Shown here piece by piece: positions 10,939-22,886 of a stretch of 64,000 bases of DNA. The notes under the pieces were generated by a model. That model was not told the origin of the DNA, ran no database searches, and saw nothing but the letters and a program-made list of their open reading frames with translations. The translations under genes and the position numbers were made by a program. Numbering within the stretch: the stretch's first letter is position 1; each line of letters starts with the position of its first letter. Source of the DNA: Pseudanabaena yagii GIHE-NHR1 (GTDB taxonomy: Bacteria; Cyanobacteriota; Cyanobacteriia; Pseudanabaenales; Pseudanabaenaceae); NCBI RefSeq assembly GCF_012863495.1, contig NZ_JAAVJL010000001.1:806001-870000 (forward strand), read 5' to 3'.

Positions 10939-11038
10939 ACGCGCGTTCGGGATAATTTGAAACGGGCTTTGAGAGAGGGTTGGCGTAGCCAACCCTCTCT
11001 CAAAGCCTAAAAGTTGCCAGCTTAACCCGAACTGACGT
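10939..11038. mobile_element. Family 1 palindromic element, copy a (100 bp)
   Basis: Left end ACGCGCGTTCGGGATAATTT; right end (complement) ACGTCAGTTCGGGTTAAG; these are imperfect inverted termini. Inside is one hairpin, GGCTTTGAGAGAGGGTTGGC with its complement around GTA. Copies b and d carry a second hairpin that is missing here. No reading frame is present, so it would need an enzyme supplied elsewhere. Confidence 0.7.
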
Positions 11039-11043
11039 TAAAC

Positions 11044-11074
11044 AAAGAAGGCGGCGCATTGCGCCGCCTTCTTT
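11044..11074 (-). terminator. Terminator of the small conserved gene
   Basis: AAAGAAGGCGGCGC-ATT-GCGCCGCCTTCTTT is a 31-base perfect palindrome overlapping the stop codon of the minus-strand gene at 11073-11294. Confidence 0.75.
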
Positions 11075-11294
11075 ATATTGCGAGGTTTTGTTTAGACTTT
11101 TCGAGTTGCTGCCATAGTTCTGCAATTTGCGTATAAGCCTCTTGAGATGAAAGCTTACCGCCCGTTTCTAAGGCACAAATAATACTGACCCGATGCGAAA
11201 ACTCTTGCAAATTGGAGTTAAACATTAAGTTCTCGGGTGTAAATTTACCGTAGTAACGAGAACGGGGAAACATAACTTTGGTTGCGGTAGACAT
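11073..11294 (-). CDS. Small conserved cyanobacterial protein (DUF7219-like)
   Basis: The 73-residue protein has the core YYGKFTPENLMFNSNLQEFS followed by HRVSIICALETGGKLSSQEAY and a helical tail. This resembles a short protein widespread in cyanobacteria, recalled as DUF7219. ATG follows a strong GGAGGGAAA ribosome site, and the stop sits in a terminator hairpin, so it is a self-contained expressed gene. No enzymatic motif or membrane segment is visible and the function is unknown. Confidence 0.7.
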   Translation of the reverse strand: MSTATKVMFPRSRYYGKFTPENLMFNSNLQEFSHRVSIICALETGGKLSSQEAYTQIAELWQQLEKSKQNLAI

Positions 11295-11686
11295 GATTTT
11301 CCCTCCTTGGATGGCAACTCAGGGTGACTAGATGTTAGGTAGCCTTAAAATCCTGAAAGGTGAGATGGCACATTAGTGCGGGTTATAACCTTTTTTGGCA
11401 GCTATTTAAATTTGATAGGCGTGAGCGATTTTTATTAACCTAATCTTAACCTAGATTTAACTTATTATGATGGGTCAGTTTGTGATAAGTTCCCGACATA
11501 GTTGAAATTTCTATTTAAGGAAATCTATGACCAATTGCTAAAGAAGTAATTATTTCTGGAGCGATGGCAAAACATAAAAACATAAATGTAGTGCATCATC
11601 TATATATCGTTTCCCAGCTAGCGGGCTCCAAGTTTTAACAGGTCTTATGCAACGAAATAGTCTAGAAAAGCACTTTCAGCAAGGTT
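11295..11686. other. Divergent regulatory region with a Pho box
   Basis: The 392-base region separates the divergent small gene and the SpoIIE-type phosphatase. A candidate Pho box lies at 11434-11463. No reading frame of note was seen; the leader to the + strand gene would be about 200 bases. Confidence 0.5.
11434..11463 (+). promoter_or_regulatory. Candidate Pho box (three tandem 8-mers)
   Basis: ATTAACCT-AAT-CTTAACCT-AGA-TTTAACTT: three direct 8-base repeats with 3-base spacers, the layout of cyanobacterial PhoB/SphR sites (PyTTAAPyPy(T/A)). An extended -10-like TGTGATAAG lies about 12-20 bases downstream. The orientation points to the phosphatase gene at 11687. Confidence 0.55.
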
Positions 11687-14059
11687 ATGACGCTATTTAA
11701 ACCTGCGATCGCACTTATGAACCGTCTGAAATATCCCCAGAAATTTTTTCTGATTAGCTTGCTATTTGTTTTGCCGCTAGCACTAGTAATGAACTTACTA
11801 CTATCGGAAATCAATAGCCGCATTGAATTTACTCAAAAAGAAATCTATGGCAATGCTTACCTCCGTCCTCTAAACCAACTCTGGCAGCATATCCCCCGCA
11901 GACAGTTAATTTTACAGCGCCAGTTCTATAAAGATACCCAAAGTTTCGGTCAAATATTACATTCCCAGTCACAGGAATTAATCGATTTACAAAATAAGAT
12001 TGATCAAGCATTTATCAAGCTCACAAATGTTGATCGCCAATTAGGTAAGGTCGTCCAAACTAGCGATAAATTGCAAGATATCAAGTTTGCATGGATTAGT
12101 CTCAGAGATAGTAAAGAGTTTGCTTCTTTTCGGAATCATGATGCTCTCCTCGAACAACTCGATCGCTTCCGTATCCATATAGTTGACTTCTCCAATTTGA
12201 TTCTCGATCCAGATCTTGATACTTACTATCTGATGGATGCGAGTGCTGTGAAGTTGCCAGAGATGCAAAAGCTCCTGCATCAAATTATGCAGATAGAGGC
12301 AGAAGTTATCTTTAAAAAAGAAATTAGCAATGATAATAAAGAGAAATTAATTGCTTGCATTAGCTTATTAAATAATTACAATAATGCGATCGCCGCAAAT
12401 CTAGAGAGAGCTTTTAACAATAATCCGCGCCAAAATCTCCGTAACTCTCTCAATATTCCTCTGCGTAATTTTGTTGTTAGTGTTAGTGAATTCAACGCTT
12501 ATACCAATGAGTTAGTAAGACAAGAAAATAAATTTAATTTTACAGATAGTTTCTATCGGCAAGAGATGGAAAGCACTCTAGATGATAGCTTTACACTCTG
12601 GCAACAGGTTGTTGATCGTCTCGATGAGCTATTGACTTATCGCATTCAAGGATTTGAGCAACGCAAACAATTTATCTTGATTTTTATAGCAGTGATTTTC
12701 ATCACTATCATCTATTTATTTATCGGTTTTTACCTAGCAGTAATGCAAACTGTAAATCAGTTAGATATCGCATCTAAACAAATGACTAATGGGGGTGAAA
12801 TCTTGGTCAATCTCAATAGTAAAGATGAATTGTCGATGGTAGTTCAATCATTTAATAATGTTGCGATCGCGCTGAGGGAATCTGAAGCTAAATATCGAGG
12901 TATTTTTGAAAACTCTGTCGATGGCATCTTTCAAACTACGGTCAATGGCAAATATATCAGTGTGAACCCCGCGCTGGCTCAGATTTATGGCTATGATTCG
13001 GTAGCACAAATGCTCGATGAAATAGTTGATATCCAAACACATCTTTATGTGGATAGCGATCGCCGCCATCAGTTTCAGCAACTCATGGAAGTAAATGACA
13101 AAATTACTAACTTTGAATCACAAATATATAAACGAGATCGCAGCACTATTTGGATCAGTGAAAATGTCCGAGCCATTCGCGATCGGCAAGGCAACATCAT
13201 CTATTACGAAGGAACTGTTGAAGACATTAATCAACGCAAGATTGCAGAAATAGCCTTAGAGAAGGCTAATCAGCAAATTCTGGCGCTAAATAATCGCCTC
13301 AAGCATGAGAATATGCGGATGAGTAGTGAGCTAGAAGTCACGCGCAAACTCCAGCAGATGATCCTACCAAAAGAGCAGGAACTATCGTTAATCTTAGGTC
13401 TAGATATTGCTGGCTTTATGGAACCTGCTGCTGAGGTGGGTGGCGATTATTACGATGTACTGCAACAGCATGGACGCATCAAAATCGGCATCGGCGATGT
13501 TACTGGTCATGGGCTAGAAAGTGGTGTGCTAATGATCATGGTGCAGACAGCCGTAAGGACTTTATTGCAAAGCGAAGAAAATGATCCTGTTCGTTTTTTA
13601 GATACCCTTAACCGTACTATTTATGGCAATGTGCAGAGAATGTCATCGGACAAAAATTTAACTCTCTCTCTCATTGACTATGAACATGGCAAATTGACCT
13701 TAAGTGGCCAGCATGAAGAAATTATTGTGGTGCGTCAAAATGGAAATCTAGAACGCTTTGATACTATCGATCTGGGATTTCCCATTGGTCTAGAGGAAGA
13801 GATTTCTGATTTTCTAGCTCAAAAACAGATTCATTTAGATTTAGGCGATGTCATGGTGCTGTATACCGATGGGATTACGGAAGCAGAAAATGAATCTCGT
13901 CAACTCTATGGTGTGGATCGCTTATGTGAAGTAGTTCGTCAACATGTAGAGGAATCGGCAAGTAGCATTCGGCAGGCAGTTATTGATGATTTGAGATCGC
14001 ATATTGGCACACAAAAAATCTATGACGACATCACATTGCTAGTTCTCAAACAAAAATAA
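11687..14059 (+). CDS. Membrane PAS-SpoIIE (RsbU-type) serine phosphatase
   Basis: The 790-residue protein has a transmembrane helix at about 20-40, a large exported helical sensor (about 41-330), a second helix (about 330-352) and HAMP (about 350-395). A PAS domain follows (about 400-515, YRGIFENSVDGIFQTTVNGK), then a coiled coil and a PP2C-like SpoIIE phosphatase (about 560-788). Metal and catalytic signatures are AEVGGDYYDV, GIGDVTGHGLESG, LYTDGITEAEN and YDDITLLVLK. It probably dephosphorylates an anti-anti-sigma (STAS) protein in partner switching. No such partner is adjacent. The upstream Pho box suggests phosphate control (inference). Confidence 0.9.
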   Translation: MTLFKPAIALMNRLKYPQKFFLISLLFVLPLALVMNLLLSEINSRIEFTQKEIYGNAYLRPLNQLWQHIPRRQLILQRQFYKDTQSFGQILHSQSQELIDLQNKIDQAFIKLTNVDRQLGKVVQTSDKLQDIKFAWISLRDSKEFASFRNHDALLEQLDRFRIHIVDFSNLILDPDLDTYYLMDASAVKLPEMQKLLHQIMQIEAEVIFKKEISNDNKEKLIACISLLNNYNNAIAANLERAFNNNPRQNLRNSLNIPLRNFVVSVSEFNAYTNELVRQENKFNFTDSFYRQEMESTLDDSFTLWQQVVDRLDELLTYRIQGFEQRKQFILIFIAVIFITIIYLFIGFYLAVMQTVNQLDIASKQMTNGGEILVNLNSKDELSMVVQSFNNVAIALRESEAKYRGIFENSVDGIFQTTVNGKYISVNPALAQIYGYDSVAQMLDEIVDIQTHLYVDSDRRHQFQQLMEVNDKITNFESQIYKRDRSTIWISENVRAIRDRQGNIIYYEGTVEDINQRKIAEIALEKANQQILALNNRLKHENMRMSSELEVTRKLQQMILPKEQELSLILGLDIAGFMEPAAEVGGDYYDVLQQHGRIKIGIGDVTGHGLESGVLMIMVQTAVRTLLQSEENDPVRFLDTLNRTIYGNVQRMSSDKNLTLSLIDYEHGKLTLSGQHEEIIVVRQNGNLERFDTIDLGFPIGLEEEISDFLAQKQIHLDLGDVMVLYTDGITEAENESRQLYGVDRLCEVVRQHVEESASSIRQAVIDDLRSHIGTQKIYDDITLLVLKQK

Positions 14060-15966: not shown

Positions 15967-18900
15967 ATGATGACAGCGCAGTATCAGGCGGCTCTACACT
16001 CCTATGCAGAGGGGCGGTATGAAGAGGCAATGCAGCAGTTCTCAGAATTGTTGTATGAAGATCCTCGCAATCCCAAACTGCATATTTGGTTGGGCGCAAC
16101 CTTTCGTAAAGCGGGTAAAATTGAGTACGCTAAGGTGCAATATCAACAGGTATTGACCCTTACGGACGATCCTGATTTGCTTGATCTGGCTAGTACATCC
16201 CTTGCTCAAATTCAAAATAAGTTAGCTCATAGCGCTCAAAAAACTGAATCCCAAAAGGCTATCCCAAAAGATCTAGATAGCTCCCATAAATTGCATGATT
16301 CATCTTCGCAACAAGAAATCACCCAAGTCATGCATCCTCAAAGTAATGCGATATTGGGGATAAGTCGTCTAGTAGATAATGCGATCGCATCTAATTCTGA
16401 TTTAGCTGAGAGTAGTGGGGATGAAACTCTATTAGCTTCTAATTCTAGTATTCTTAGTAATAACAACGTGTCTAAGCCTCAAACCGCCATCAAAGTTAGC
16501 AATGGACTAGTGCCACCACCACCTGCGATTGCCGCTCTATTGGAAAATAAGCAACAGACAATCATTCCCGACGAACCTGCCAGTGAGTCGTTTATTTTCA
16601 GTGATGAGCCAACGGAAAGGTCTACTAATTCTTCCGCACCACCATCAATAACAGCATCAATTTTGCAGGACACGATCGCTAATCTGCAAAATAGCAATCC
16701 ACAAGACAAAAAGACAAAGAAGAGCAAAAAGAAAAAGCCCCAAGTTGAATTTCCACCCTTAGAATCAGAAGTATTTATAGATGCTGGTGAGCAAGGGAAC
16801 CTTGCGGAGGTTGTGAGCAATAAGTCTGCAACCTCCGCAAATTCAGCGATCGCTTTGGAAGATATGCTGAAATTTTCTACAGTGGGACAAAAAATCACTT
16901 TATGGGGGGCTTTAGTTGCTACTATCCCTGCAGTTATTTTAGGGGTAACAGCCTACAAGGTCGGTGATGGTTTGTTACTCACAAAGGTCAAGCAAGGACA
17001 ACAGTCGGAAGCGATCTCACTTGCTAAAACCACTGAAAATTTCTTACACAGACAAACAAGTGATGTCGGGGTACTGAAGACATTGTTGGTCTCAGCAGAG
17101 GTAGGACAAAACACCCTACAAAATGCTGGACAGAATACTATTACGACAAATCCATCGGAATCGAATAAGACAATTAAGCTATTAGCATCTTTACCGATCA
17201 ACCAACAACGTCAATATAAGCAACTCTTAACTAATCGCTTAAATCTCTATAGTCAAGCCTATCCACAATATACGAGCATTGCGATATTTAGCACCAATGG
17301 AGAACTGTTAGCACAATCCAATAACTCTAAAACGCTTCAAACAATTAATCCTAATCTTCTCAATAAAGCTGCTACGGCTGACAATGTATTAATTGGGAAT
17401 CCTGTGGTTGATAAGGATGGTACTTATTTATATGCAGTAACATCCGTTAAGAGTTCAGTTTCTCAAAAAGTAGGCATGATTTTACAGGTGGAAATCCCCG
17501 TAAAGTCTTTAGTAAGTGAGTTAAGCAATAATAGAAATAGTAATGGAGGTAGCAATTTCTATGTAATTGATAATGCGAACAAATATATTGCTAGTTCTCA
17601 GCCTGTTACGCTTGCCGAGGATGCATTAACAGATTTTGCAATGCTCCCGAGCTTACGTTCATTGCCATCCAATGATCTCCCAGAAATTGTAAAGGGTGAC
17701 CGCAATCCCCAAATACTTGCCTATGCCCCCATTTCTAATATGCAAAGTTATGGCATGGCTTGGGATATAGTCACCACTATCGATAAAGCCACAGCCATTT
17801 CGGGGAATCAAAATCTGCTGCTGGTGATCGGTATTGGCATTGCGGCGACACCTTTGCTGGTCGCAGCGATCGCCTATGCGCTATCACGACGATTAAGTAA
17901 CCGACTTAAGGATATTCGTTCAGCTTTACGCGATCTTAGCCGAGGCAATACTGATATTAGCTTTGGAACCCTCAGCGTAGAAGGAAATGATGAACTAGCT
18001 GATATTTCCTTAAGCATAAATAAAATGTCTGATCAGTTCCAAGTCATGATGCAAAAGCAAGAACAGGAACGACAAAGGCTCCAAGCGCAAGTGGTTAAAA
18101 TGTTCAAGGTTTTATCTAAGCTTGCAAGGGAAGAAAAACAAGAAGTGCAAGAAGATGATTTATCCGATCAAAAAATCATGCAATTGGGTAAAAAAATTCG
18201 TGGGGAAATGGTACAACGGAATGCTGAAGTTGAGAGCTATCGTCAGCAGAAATCTGATCTGCAAGCTCAACTGATGCAAATGCTGAAGGATGTACAGGCT
18301 TTAGCTGATGGTGATTTGACTGTTGCGACCAAATCCATTGACGGCAATCTCAATAATGTCTCCATATTCTTTGATGATGTCATCCGTGGATTGCAAAACA
18401 TCGTTGGGCAAGTTAAATCCTCTGCTAGTCAAGTTAACTTGTCGCTTGGGCAAAATGAACAGGCGATCGCCAATCTGACAAGTGTTTCTCAGAGACAGGT
18501 CGATACGGTGACGCGATCGCTAAATACAGTGCAAATGGCGAAGATATCCGCTAACTCCATCACAACCAACAGCCAGAATGTGCTGAAATCATCGCAAATG
18601 GTTGCGGAAAAGCTCTCTGAAAGTGATCGATCTATTGATGCAGTGATGACAAAAGTCGGGGAATTGCAAGGTACTGTCGCCAATACCGCCAAGCGAGTCA
18701 AGCACTTAGGTGAAGTCTCGCAAAAAATTGCCAAGGCAATTTCCGCAATTAATGAAATCGCTATAAAGACTAACTTTCTAGCGATTAATGCCACCCTTGA
18801 AGCCTCTCGTTCAGGAGATATGGGTAATGGATTTGCGATGGTCGCAGAAGAAGTAGGGGAACTAGCAGCACGCTCAGTAGCAGCGACCAAAGAAGTCGAA

Positions 18901-19245
18901 GGTTTACTGAATAGTATTCAAACTGAGGCGAATGCCGTCATGATGGCAGTTGAATCTGGTAGCAACCAAGCTGCTGAGAGCGCCACATTAGCAATCTCAG
19001 CAAAAGATAGTCTGCTGCAAATCTCTCATATTTCTCAACAAATTGATGAGTTAGTATCGTCGATTTCCGATGCCACCATTTCACAGGTACAAACCTCAGA
19101 AGGTGTTGCCAACTTAATGAAGGATATCTCACATATTGCCAAAAGGAATCTAGCGGCTTCTTCGGAAGTATCAAAGTTCCTCAAGTCAACTAAAAGATAT
19201 TCTGGGGACTTACAACAAGCTTTGGCTCAATTTAAGACTCGATAA
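15967..19245 (+). CDS. TPR-MCP fusion, PilJ-type methyl-accepting taxis receptor
   Basis: This 1092-residue receptor has TPR units at about 5-85, a disordered Ser/Asn/Lys-rich linker (about 90-300), a transmembrane helix (about 308-328) and an exported Cache-like sensor (about 335-610). A second helix (about 615-636), HAMP units and a long coiled coil lead to the signalling hairpin. Its tip at about 925-945 reads INEIAIKTNFLAINATLEAS, followed by RSGDMGNGFAMVAEEVGELAARS. It should control the CheA-type kinase encoded 57 bases downstream, as in type IV pilus phototaxis systems of cyanobacteria. The ligand is unknown. Confidence 0.9.
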   Translation: MMTAQYQAALHSYAEGRYEEAMQQFSELLYEDPRNPKLHIWLGATFRKAGKIEYAKVQYQQVLTLTDDPDLLDLASTSLAQIQNKLAHSAQKTESQKAIPKDLDSSHKLHDSSSQQEITQVMHPQSNAILGISRLVDNAIASNSDLAESSGDETLLASNSSILSNNNVSKPQTAIKVSNGLVPPPPAIAALLENKQQTIIPDEPASESFIFSDEPTERSTNSSAPPSITASILQDTIANLQNSNPQDKKTKKSKKKKPQVEFPPLESEVFIDAGEQGNLAEVVSNKSATSANSAIALEDMLKFSTVGQKITLWGALVATIPAVILGVTAYKVGDGLLLTKVKQGQQSEAISLAKTTENFLHRQTSDVGVLKTLLVSAEVGQNTLQNAGQNTITTNPSESNKTIKLLASLPINQQRQYKQLLTNRLNLYSQAYPQYTSIAIFSTNGELLAQSNNSKTLQTINPNLLNKAATADNVLIGNPVVDKDGTYLYAVTSVKSSVSQKVGMILQVEIPVKSLVSELSNNRNSNGGSNFYVIDNANKYIASSQPVTLAEDALTDFAMLPSLRSLPSNDLPEIVKGDRNPQILAYAPISNMQSYGMAWDIVTTIDKATAISGNQNLLLVIGIGIAATPLLVAAIAYALSRRLSNRLKDIRSALRDLSRGNTDISFGTLSVEGNDELADISLSINKMSDQFQVMMQKQEQERQRLQAQVVKMFKVLSKLAREEKQEVQEDDLSDQKIMQLGKKIRGEMVQRNAEVESYRQQKSDLQAQLMQMLKDVQALADGDLTVATKSIDGNLNNVSIFFDDVIRGLQNIVGQVKSSASQVNLSLGQNEQAIANLTSVSQRQVDTVTRSLNTVQMAKISANSITTNSQNVLKSSQMVAEKLSESDRSIDAVMTKVGELQGTVANTAKRVKHLGEVSQKIAKAISAINEIAIKTNFLAINATLEASRSGDMGNGFAMVAEEVGELAARSVAATKEVEGLLNSIQTEANAVMMAVESGSNQAAESATLAISAKDSLLQISHISQQIDELVSSISDATISQVQTSEGVANLMKDISHIAKRNLAASSEVSKFLKSTKRYSGDLQQALAQFKTR

Positions 19246-19301
19246 GTGATTAAAGCTAGCCATCTAGCGTCAAGGGAAAAAGTTCACTAGAGCTACATAT
19301 A

Positions 19302-22300
19302 ATGACTCCTGCAATGATTGAAACAGAATCACAACAAACCAAACAAATCTTTTCTGAAGAAGCCCAGCTTTATACTAGTGATCTAGAAAAGCAAATTTCA
19401 GAACTAGATCCGAGTCTATCAAATTTCAATCAACAGATTGATCAAGTACTCACTACCTATAGCCAACTTAGGGAATCTGCAACTAAGGCAGATTTTTATA
19501 GCCAAAGCCCTATTTTTACAAATATCACCAACCGCTTTGATGATGCGATCAAGGTATTAGGCGATCGCTCAGATTGTATTAATCAGCATCTTAAAGAATT
19601 ACTTATAGAAGTAATCATTATGCTGCGTCAAATTATCAATGAATATTGCTTTGCCTCAGCACCAAACCCTAACTGGCTTGACTTACAAAATAATTTATTT
19701 ACGCAAATAAATAATAGTTTAGCTGCCAAGAAACAGAGCTATGACTATCATCCCAGTTCCATAATTACTAACCAAGATAATATTGATAGTAATGAGCTTA
19801 ATGATCAAGAAATTGAGTCATTAAATTTACCTTTTAACCTAAATGACACCTTTGAGGGTTTGCATTTATTTGATGTAGAAGATAGCGAGACTGAAAACTT
19901 CGATGATTTTCTATCTTTTAATCAAATGAATCAATCAGAAAATGCCGACACATTCTTTTTGCTGCAATTAGAGGATCTAGATGTGCCGCAATCGCTAGAA
20001 CAGGATTTCGAGGAATCTCAGATAGAGCCATTTCAATCATCGTTAGATCTCAATCAAGACTCATCTCAAATTGCTAGCGAAGAAGTCACCCATGTCGCAG
20101 CCAATCAGAAAATACCAGCAATATCTGAAGATTTTGATGCTCAACTTGATAATCTGATTAATTTGAGAGACCAACAAAGATTACCAATGCCAGAATTACT
20201 TAAGGATATCTTTCCATCAAATAATACTGAGCATCTATTGGGGAATGAAGACGAGACTACACTACAGGGGGTTAACTGGGAAAATGGGGAAGATGACTTA
20301 GATAATCATTGGCACCAATTTGGAGCGTTACAGTCTTGGGCAGAGCTAAATGCCCATAATGACGATCGCGCAGAGGATCTTGACGAAGTTGAAACTGTAT
20401 CAAGTCAACCTTTTCCTTTCCCTGCTGATGAAAGCAAACTTATAGACATAGACGACGAGATTGCTAATAGTTTTTTTGAGCCGTTACCATTAGATGAAGA
20501 TGAAGCTGCATTTTGGAATTCTTTAGAGTCTATGGATTCTTTAGATTTTCTTGAAGACTCACAACAAGTAGAAGAATTAGAAGATCAGGCTGAATCTCAG
20601 CTCAGTAGTTTAGGAAATCAGTCTGAATCTCAACTTAGTAGTTTAGAAGAGCAGTATGAATCTCAACTTAGTAGCATTGATCAGTCACAAAAAGAGAGTG
20701 ACTTACTCTGGCTAGATATGATCAAATCTCAGGATTTTTCTAGCTCAGATGTGGATACCGCCATAGAAGAATCACCCATTTATCAGAACAAAACTATACC
20801 TAGTCCTGATGATTTGGCATTAGTAGATAGTCATCATCAAGAAATTGAATATCCAGCTTTAAGTGCGGATACAGCTATTGATAAGGATCTTGAGAATATT
20901 GCGCCTTTATCGCTAAACATGACAAAGGAGATCAAGATAGACTTACATTCCTCTGAAGATTCAGATTTAGGAATTCTTAAGCCATTAGATACGCATCTGA
21001 CAAATATTGATTATCACGAGGCTAATATTCGAGTTCCTCTTAATTATTTAGAACTTTGGGAAGATCTATCAGAGGAATTGTTGGTAAGAAAGGGAAACTT
21101 AGATGTTTATTTAAGTGAAATGCGTGTGTTGTCCCACGAAGCTCGAAAACAATTGCAGGTGTTAGAGCCACAAGCTACTGGCAATCAAAAGGCGATCGCA
21201 ACTTTACAAAATACCTTAGAACTGATTACTGGCATCCTTGAGCATACCGAAAAGCAATCCTATGCAATTAGCCATGATGTTCGTAATTTAAGAAAAAACT
21301 TTCGACAAGTTCTTAAATACCCAATATCTAGTCTGGTAAGAAAGTTTCCACGCATCTTACATGACCTTTCCTTAGAGCATGGGAAGCAAGTTGAGTTAAT
21401 TGTCCAAGGTTCGGAAATTGGCATAGATCGAGAAATTGTAACTCTAGTAGGTGAGACCCTTGAGCTATTACTTCGTAATGCTTTTGAGCATAGTATAGAA
21501 CCGACTAGTGAGCGTCATCAACAAGGTAAATCATTACAAGGCAAGATTGAAATTATCGCCACTCAAACCGATGATCAAACAATTATTAGAATTAGTGATG
21601 ATGGGCGAGGATTTGATAATCAGACCAGTAGCATTTCCTATTTGGAAAATATTGCAAAGTTAAGTAATGTTCGTAAGAAGTTGTGGAATGTCGGAGGGAA
21701 GATTTCCGTTAAATCACATTTAGGTCAAGGCACTCAAGTAACCGTAACTTTGCCCATTACGATTTCCTTACTTAGGGTATTGCTAATTGATATTGATCAA
21801 ATGTGTTTAGCGATCGCGAGCAGAAGCATTCGCGAAGTTATACCCATCAATGAAGACGAAGCTAATGTCAATGAAGAGCCAGAAACTCTAGCATGGAATG
21901 ATCACATTGTGCCTATTGTGCGTCTCAATTCTTTACTTAAGCTCAATTGTCAGCGTAATTCCTATCAGAGGAATGCACCACTTAATAATCAAAACCCAAC
22001 ATTCACCAATCAAACACAAAACTATAGACCTGCGATCGCTGTCCCTTCATACCTAATTATTCAGCATGATCATAATTTATTTGCACTGCAAACCGATGGT
22101 TGCTGGCATGAGCAAGAAGCGACATTTCATCAAATTGAGGGAGATATTGCCCTACCATCAATCTTTAGCGGCTCTGTAATCCTAGGAGACAATCAGGCAG
22201 TAGCTTTAATTAATCAGACAGAGTTAGTTAATCAATGCTTGCGATCGCACCCTAATATCGGTGTATTAGATTCGCAGTCTGACCATGACAGTTTTCCTGA

Positions 22301-22886
22301 TTTACAGAATAATACCCCTCAGCTAGAGAATTTGAAAAGTCTATCGGATTTCTTCACCGTCAATGATCAATCTAACGAGTCGGATATATCAGAATTTTTG
22401 GAGCAACCAGTACGTTCTTTGAACCAAACATCTGAGCCAGAAAATCTCGAAAGCTCTGGCATTTTTATGAGTGATTTACATGATGGTCAGAAAAGAACTT
22501 CTAGCCAGCCAAAGGTACTGATCGTTGAGTCTTCAGCCAATGTGCGACGCTATCTTGCTATGACCTTAGCAAGATCAGGTTTTCTCACTGAACAGGTACA
22601 GGATGGTAAAGCCGCGATCGCATTTCTGAAGGATCGACTCAAGGACAAATTAGATATTGATATTGTGATTACAGATTTGGAGATGCCTCAAATGGATGGG
22701 TTTAAGCTCCTATCTGGTATCCGCTCCGATGCAGAATTACACAATTTACCGATTGTGGTACTCACAGCCCGCAATAATGAAAATGATCAAAAGCTCGCCT
22801 TAGAGCTGGGTGCTAATGCCTACTTCAGCAAGCCCTATCGAGAGCAAGAATTGGTTAAAACCTTACAAGAGATCGCTTCTAGGTAA
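19302..22886 (+). CDS. CheA-type hybrid kinase (PilL-C-like) lacking an HPt histidine
   Basis: The 1194-residue protein has a helical N-terminus (1-130) in the place of HPt but without the usual His-Ser/Thr-x-Lys-Gly motif. A long acidic linker (about 140-620) contains an 11-residue tandem repeat (ESQLSSL, three times). The CheA core follows: dimerisation region, N box LLLRNAFEHSIEPTSERH (about 721-738), G1 DDGRGFD (766-772) and VGGKISVKSHLGQGTQVTV. A CheW-like domain and a receiver with Asp1125 (ITDLEMPQMDG) and FSKPY complete it. It resembles the C-terminal half of split cyanobacterial PilL, whose HPt is on another protein. It probably forms an operon with the upstream receptor. Confidence 0.88.
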   Translation: MTPAMIETESQQTKQIFSEEAQLYTSDLEKQISELDPSLSNFNQQIDQVLTTYSQLRESATKADFYSQSPIFTNITNRFDDAIKVLGDRSDCINQHLKELLIEVIIMLRQIINEYCFASAPNPNWLDLQNNLFTQINNSLAAKKQSYDYHPSSIITNQDNIDSNELNDQEIESLNLPFNLNDTFEGLHLFDVEDSETENFDDFLSFNQMNQSENADTFFLLQLEDLDVPQSLEQDFEESQIEPFQSSLDLNQDSSQIASEEVTHVAANQKIPAISEDFDAQLDNLINLRDQQRLPMPELLKDIFPSNNTEHLLGNEDETTLQGVNWENGEDDLDNHWHQFGALQSWAELNAHNDDRAEDLDEVETVSSQPFPFPADESKLIDIDDEIANSFFEPLPLDEDEAAFWNSLESMDSLDFLEDSQQVEELEDQAESQLSSLGNQSESQLSSLEEQYESQLSSIDQSQKESDLLWLDMIKSQDFSSSDVDTAIEESPIYQNKTIPSPDDLALVDSHHQEIEYPALSADTAIDKDLENIAPLSLNMTKEIKIDLHSSEDSDLGILKPLDTHLTNIDYHEANIRVPLNYLELWEDLSEELLVRKGNLDVYLSEMRVLSHEARKQLQVLEPQATGNQKAIATLQNTLELITGILEHTEKQSYAISHDVRNLRKNFRQVLKYPISSLVRKFPRILHDLSLEHGKQVELIVQGSEIGIDREIVTLVGETLELLLRNAFEHSIEPTSERHQQGKSLQGKIEIIATQTDDQTIIRISDDGRGFDNQTSSISYLENIAKLSNVRKKLWNVGGKISVKSHLGQGTQVTVTLPITISLLRVLLIDIDQMCLAIASRSIREVIPINEDEANVNEEPETLAWNDHIVPIVRLNSLLKLNCQRNSYQRNAPLNNQNPTFTNQTQNYRPAIAVPSYLIIQHDHNLFALQTDGCWHEQEATFHQIEGDIALPSIFSGSVILGDNQAVALINQTELVNQCLRSHPNIGVLDSQSDHDSFPDLQNNTPQLENLKSLSDFFTVNDQSNESDISEFLEQPVRSLNQTSEPENLESSGIFMSDLHDGQKRTSSQPKVLIVESSANVRRYLAMTLARSGFLTEQVQDGKAAIAFLKDRLKDKLDIDIVITDLEMPQMDGFKLLSGIRSDAELHNLPIVVLTARNNENDQKLALELGANAYFSKPYREQELVKTLQEIASR
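20590..20688 (+). repeat. Three 33-bp tandem repeats in the CheA linker
   Basis: Three in-frame units each begin GAATCTCA(A/G)CT(T/C)AGTAG and encode ESQLSSLGNQS, ESQLSSLEEQY and ESQLSSIDQSQ. They lie in the acidic linker, outside every folded domain. Confidence 0.85.

Follow-up and report, generated by a model that had tools for sequence, protein, structure and literature searches.

A Pho-type box between two divergent genes

Three direct repeats upstream of a gene for a SpoIIE-type protein phosphatase raise the question of whether, and on which of their two sides, they place a gene under phosphate control. They were found in the window, i.e., the whole stretch of 64,000 nucleotides analyzed here (C1:806001-870000), exactly where the original prediction had located a box with the layout of a Pho site. 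The + strand at 11434-11463 reads ATTAACCT-AAT-CTTAACCT-AGA-TTTAACTT, three 8-base repeats (11434-11441, 11445-11452, and 11456-11463, respectively) with 3-base spacers, and a TTAA core can be read directly in all three. The cyanobacterial Pho consensus is YTTAACYTnnnYTTAACYTnnnYTTAACYT, from which the box deviates by a single mismatch at 24 specified positions. The threefold YTTAACYT agrees with Table 1 of PMC1906773. When up to 3 mismatches were allowed, the box was the sole match in the 64-kb window, and none of 100 shuffles gave one. The whole genome (5,567,508 bases) contains three places at this stringency, among which the box is the best, and no match to the consensus read backwards. 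The two remaining places have 3 mismatches each. One of them (L002) lies 87 bp upstream of a gene for a PstS-like binding protein (MMSKK start; Pfam PF12849), a sign that phosphate genes are marked by the motif in this organism; the other (L003) is AT-rich. Judged by its sequence, the 11434-11463 element is a genuine Pho-type regulatory site.

The top PhoB-like protein of the genome, our SphR candidate (C1:1026983-1027654), scored 240 bits versus a cut-off of 296 bits for the PhoB equivalog; of the solved structures, RegX3 is the one it matches best. TIGR02154 has 150 matches in the genome, and most of those listed cover the receiver part only.

The box starts 253 bp upstream of the ATG of the phosphatase gene, at 11687. 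This gene (11687-14059, + strand) encodes a protein of 790 residues, in whose translation two hydrophobic segments were recognized by eye; it has a PAS domain (1.1e-9) and a SpoIIE (PP2C) domain (PF07228, 2.3e-39) that is nearly full length, the domain match covering positions 2 to 190 of 192. Relatives of its N-terminal part were found in 72 of 338 genomes of the class. Partner switching with RsbU/SpoIIE-type phosphatases is reported in cyanobacteria, with hormogonium control as an example. The RsbW-type domain HATPase_c_2 (PF13581) gave 12 matches in the genome, 8 of them above the Pfam cut-off; some belong to long proteins, possibly histidine kinases of the ordinary kind. Within the window, no RsbW-type kinase gene (PF13581) was found. 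As such matches occur elsewhere in the genome, the suggested link of the phosphatase to a partner-switching sigma or STAS pathway is possible. Some 2 kb past the phosphatase gene, a gene for a methyl-accepting chemotaxis protein (MCP) and a CheA-like gene follow at 15967-22886, and the region may thus belong to motility control.

On the other side of the box lies a divergent gene (11073-11294, − strand) that was absent from the earlier description of its surroundings. Its product of 73 residues belongs to the DUF7219 family (PF23856, 2e-29), and beyond it is an argG-like gene, which we take from the look of its sequence to be argG. Between these two genes, the window has two strong inverted repeats at 10965-11071, one a long palindrome at about 10965-11009, the other a GGCGGCGCATTGCGCCGCC hairpin followed by T-rich sequence; they may represent a mobile repeat and a terminator.

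Conservation of the box and its neighbors within the genus

Of the 26 genus genomes, 24 have an ortholog of the DUF7219 gene, the other two (G008 and G024) having only a more distant copy. The argG-like gene adjoins it in 23 of these 24 genomes and was not seen in the stretch of G003 that was examined. All 24 genomes have the box beside the ortholog, always reading away from it, at 15 to 274 bp from its start. Across the genus, repeat 1, repeat 2, and the first spacer are almost invariant, at 1.70, 1.95, and 1.78 bits, versus 0.26 to 0.41 bits for the 60 bases upstream and 0.71 bits for the 30 bases downstream (1.01 in the SpoIIE-adjacent set); since related sequences push such values up, it is the comparison with the flanks that counts. 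The genome of the window has two DUF7219 paralogs, one of which (L353) has no box upstream; the second (L354) was left out, as no start was found. In the partly complete genome G022, a second copy of the DUF7219-type box (L136) was observed near a contig start; 117 bp downstream, where SpoIIE would otherwise be, lies what is presumably, from the look of its sequence, a predicted ATPase gene.

The SpoIIE gene is present in 21 of the 26 genomes, including that of the window: it is full length in 19 and split over contigs in two (G011 and G014). It was not found in G006, G007, G008, G009, and G022, the last of which is 82% complete. With up to 5 mismatches allowed, the box occurs upstream of SpoIIE in 14 of the 17 loci with at least 1 kb of upstream sequence; G011 and G014 add two boxes, giving 16 of 19 testable genomes, while G021 and G024 fall outside this count because of contig ends. 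In the three genomes without a box at SpoIIE (G002, G003, and G013), the gene lies behind another that we assume, from its sequence, to be dnaK-like. The box is thus retained by DUF7219 in seven genomes in which SpoIIE is elsewhere (those three) or was not found (G006, G007, G009, and G022). In a SpoIIE tree, the three dnaK-adjacent genes group together (86/56) as part of a group of eight (99/99) to which box-adjacent genes also belong. This nesting suggests that SpoIIE left the box, the root of the tree being unsure because of long outgroup branches. An argG tree groups G002, G009, and G013 together with G018.

The distance from the box to the SpoIIE start ranges from 186 to 597 bp in the 17-locus set, and the first start in G011 comes just 95 bp after the start of the box. 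The intervening leader is largely unconserved: conservation past the box fades beyond about 60 nt, and the 160 nt preceding the ATG of 21 SpoIIE genes showed no conserved promoter block. Other elements were considered in this region. One candidate, a small ORF with the conserved sequence M-T-x-x-F-V-I-S-S immediately past the box, was rejected because a stop interrupts it in G004, and a scan of 11060-11760 for terminators, with a small RNA after the box in mind, found none. Outside the genus, none of the nine SpoIIE relatives with loci has a box pointing at it.

Within the conserved part, the module TTTGTGATAAGTTCCC (11479-11494, + strand) contains an extended −10-like sequence, TGTGATAAG, as a putative promoter element; its GATAAG (11484-11489) is 20 nt from the end of the box. 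In the 17 genomes with adjacent SpoIIE, the module TTTGTGATAAGTTCC begins 15 to 16 nt after the box (27 in G001), the adjacency being assumed for G021. Fifteen of these 17 have the 15-base module with at most one change; the remaining two, G017 and G018, have a poor version (4 and 6 changes, respectively). Among the seven genomes without adjacent SpoIIE, the module is lost (5 to 7 changes) in G002, G003, G009, G013, and G022, and the third repeat is decayed in G002, G009, and G013 and intact in G003. The other two, G006 and G007, both close relatives of the genome of the window, retain the module with one change. This retention where no SpoIIE was found fits a recent loss of the gene, but it demonstrates as well that presence of the module does not require the gene. 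After the box of the PstS-like gene, a TAGTAT follows at 19 nt in 5 of 5 genomes, versus 20 nt for TGTGATAAG. With the box preceding SpoIIE in 16 of 19 genomes and the −10-like module kept in 15 of 17, a phosphate-responsive SpoIIE promoter after the box is plausible.

The claim that the box targets the SpoIIE gene at 11687 therefore stands in part: the box points at SpoIIE and is followed by a conserved −10-like module, but what it stays with in all 24 genomes is the divergent DUF7219 gene. As the latter is its constant partner among relatives, both flanking genes are candidates for phosphate control.

Pho-type boxes were also observed at other genes of the genus. In eight genomes (L052, L062, L063, L125, L128, L129, L134, and L135), one lies 97 to 211 bp before a small cyclic-nucleotide-binding gene, at or just past the 3′ end of another gene; Pfam was run on the L062 protein only, and genes of this type are candidates for further Pho targets. 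In G001 and G024, a gene for a Na/Pi cotransporter containing a PhoU domain has two or three Pho repeats upstream (L034 and L057; Pfam on L034). A Pho-type box also precedes a gene for a pyridine-nucleotide oxidoreductase, which we take to be a type II NADH dehydrogenase, in G008 and G001 (L041 and L127; Pfam on L041).

The DUF7219-associated box in other families of the class

With one mismatch allowed, 45 of the 338 class genomes matched the 19-bp core TTAACCTWATCTTAACCTA. Of these, 23 lie outside the genus, each with one place. Nineteen of these 23 places had a surrounding locus for inspection, and at eight of the 19 a divergent DUF7219 gene lies 7 to 247 bp away, measured to its first possible start. 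These eight places are in families f36 (two), f24 (four), f11, and f1; the DUF7219 identity was determined with Pfam for L177 and L178 and by eye for the other six. Other places outside the genus precede a CHAD-domain gene or genes that, unlike that of L002, we call pstS-like from the look of their sequence. The CHAD-domain gene was observed in two genomes (L193 and L194) from a different genus of this family, about 30 bp after the start of the box core (Pfam on L193). The CHAD domain binds polyphosphate.

DUF7219 (PF23856) itself occurs in 297 of the 338 class genomes and, among 14 named control genomes, in one, that of Synechococcus elongatus. We collected 148 DUF7219 genes from other genomes, taking the best-scoring family members and leaving out one genus row and one known box bearer (G176:C99). 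L277, whose box was already known, was dropped. For the remaining 147 genes (132 genomes), we scanned the 350 nt upstream for YTTAACCTnnnYTTAACCT with at most 2 mismatches. This strong double box was found reading away from DUF7219 in 32 of the 147 upstream regions of these best-scoring members and towards it in three, versus 0.1 each in shuffles. As a control with real sequence, the 82,083 bases outside the DUF7219 upstream regions of 30 loci gave two matches, both strands being scanned. Outside the genus, the boxes lie 9 to 182 bp before the DUF7219 start codon, nine of the 32 at 9 to 72 bp.

By family, the box was present in 20 of 40 upstream regions in f16, 5 of 19 in f24, 2 of 17 in f26, both in f34, and the single one in each of f19, f21, and f39. 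At this stringency, it was found in none of the 23 upstream regions of f32, none of the 8 of f13, and none of those of the remaining families among the 147. With f1, f11, and f36 added from the core scan, the inverted DUF7219 box recurs in ten families of the class. The genes on its far side differ, and in L221, L223, L225, L229, L177, and L187 the next long gene runs towards the box; L228, for which the scan had picked another site, was left out of this comparison. Because the far-side genes vary and several converge on the box, the pattern is not accounted for by a common forward target. The new element, as defined by these sequences, is a widespread inverted Pho box at DUF7219.

Possible roles of the box and comparison with known systems

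The box and its neighbors are observed, as are the conservation of the box and the bias in its orientation; SphR binding, the location of the promoter, whether regulation is positive or negative, and all steps after the phosphatase are what we infer. We would put at about even odds that the box is an old, inverted, DUF7219-associated Pho box that was apparently co-opted as a forward promoter of SpoIIE in the genus. It would be the site of a PhoB/SphR-type regulator serving the divergent intergenic region, with the DUF7219 gene as its old and widespread partner. The genus-specific forward promoter would consist of repeats 1 to 3, followed about 20 nt downstream by the extended −10, and would drive SpoIIE transcription. 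On phosphate starvation, phosphorylated SphR would bind the three repeats and raise this transcription, and the additional phosphatase would shift a serine-phosphorylated STAS-type partner to its dephosphorylated form. In the other direction, the inverted box would overlap or crowd the DUF7219 promoter, so that expression of DUF7219 would probably be lowered. According to PMC13226834, two Pho boxes near the −10 of the Synechocystis promoter PurtA go with its phosphate repression, and the Pho boxes of activated promoters are at or above the −35. As an inverted box so near the start codon as in those nine of the 32 would likewise overlap the core promoter of DUF7219, we expect SpoIIE to be induced and DUF7219 to be repressed in low phosphate, the sign being less certain for DUF7219 than for SpoIIE. 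Somewhat more tentatively, and at a little under even chances, DUF7219 may be a widespread member of the cyanobacterial Pho regulon, with an inverted box and probable repression in starvation, the box of the genus acting as a two-way switch that also induces SpoIIE.

The box might serve DUF7219 alone, being inverted and probably repressing, with SpoIIE merely lying downstream and using a promoter of its own nearer its ATG. The widespread association of box and DUF7219, the long and variable distance to SpoIIE, and the module retained in G006 and G007 all fit this reading. We nevertheless consider it rather unlikely, because the forward module is conserved with adjacent SpoIIE and gone in five of the seven genomes without it, and because the 160 nt before the SpoIIE ATG contain no conserved promoter block in the 21 genes. 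That the box serves SpoIIE alone, with DUF7219 as a bystander, would agree with its orientation, which is that of known activated Pho promoters and of the box at the PstS-like gene (L002), and with the forward module in 15 of 17 genomes. However, the synteny makes SpoIIE as the sole target unlikely: the box stays by DUF7219 in the seven genus genomes with SpoIIE elsewhere or not found, the bias in orientation at the best-scoring DUF7219 genes outside the genus is 32 versus 3, and the nine SpoIIE relatives there are without a box.

A different regulator of the OmpR family, rather than SphR, might bind the repeats. A repeat period of 11 bp is general to this family, related regulators are many in the genome (the 150 TIGR02154 matches), and the conservation extends to the spacers, where a plain Pho box does not require it; but the same repeat unit precedes the PstS-like and Na/Pi-cotransporter genes in the genus and presumed pstS-like genes elsewhere, which leaves this alternative a low probability. 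As for AT-rich repeat noise, some genus matches of a looser pattern are plain AT repeats, and backward control matches occurred in 10 of the 26 genomes. A chance origin of the box is nonetheless ruled out for practical purposes by the shuffles (0/100), the conservation in 24 of 24 genus genomes, and the orientation bias, and we give it a negligible probability.

If the box is indeed an old DUF7219 site put to a second use, it would exemplify a Pho box possibly serving the genes on either side of it. DUF7219, present in most of the sampled genomes of the class, gains a testable handle on its role through an oriented and conserved phosphate-type site in members of ten families. If the SpoIIE part is true, phosphate status would be joined to a serine-phosphatase signaling pathway. 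In our literature search, no paper connected a Pho box with SpoIIE or DUF7219, and none of the papers searched mentions DUF7219 by name; supplementary tables, which were outside the search, could list DUF7219 genes.

Among known phosphatases, the biofilm regulator SiaA (NCBIfam NF038263) matches the C-terminal part of the protein (residues 528 to 787) with 53.6 bits, far under the cut-off of 700 bits, and here a PAS domain precedes the SpoIIE domain. The protein resembles the RsbU/SpoIIE-type phosphatases of partner switching in having a SpoIIE (PP2C) output domain behind a sensor region. It differs from them in that the sensor is a PAS domain, with no RsbW-type match in the window, and its N-terminal relatives are those of the 72 class genomes.

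As to the site, PMC11126600 reports that a mutation in any one of three TTAA cores weakened or prevented binding by Synechocystis PhoB, whose putative targets beyond phosphate uptake include pilus and chemotaxis genes. PurtA, as described in PMC13226834, has its Pho boxes on or next to the core promoter, which is where we would place them for DUF7219 in species with a short gap; the DUF7219 family, in contrast, is known here from sequence. The closest likeness in layout is to the Pho boxes or SphR (PhoB) sites of sphX, pstS, and phoA, as given in PMC1906773 and PMC11126600: three 8-bp repeats with 3-nt spacers and TTAA cores, reading, in our case, towards SpoIIE. In contrast to those sites, neither neighbor is a known phosphate-uptake gene, and the box described here is found also, and more constantly, in inverted orientation before DUF7219.
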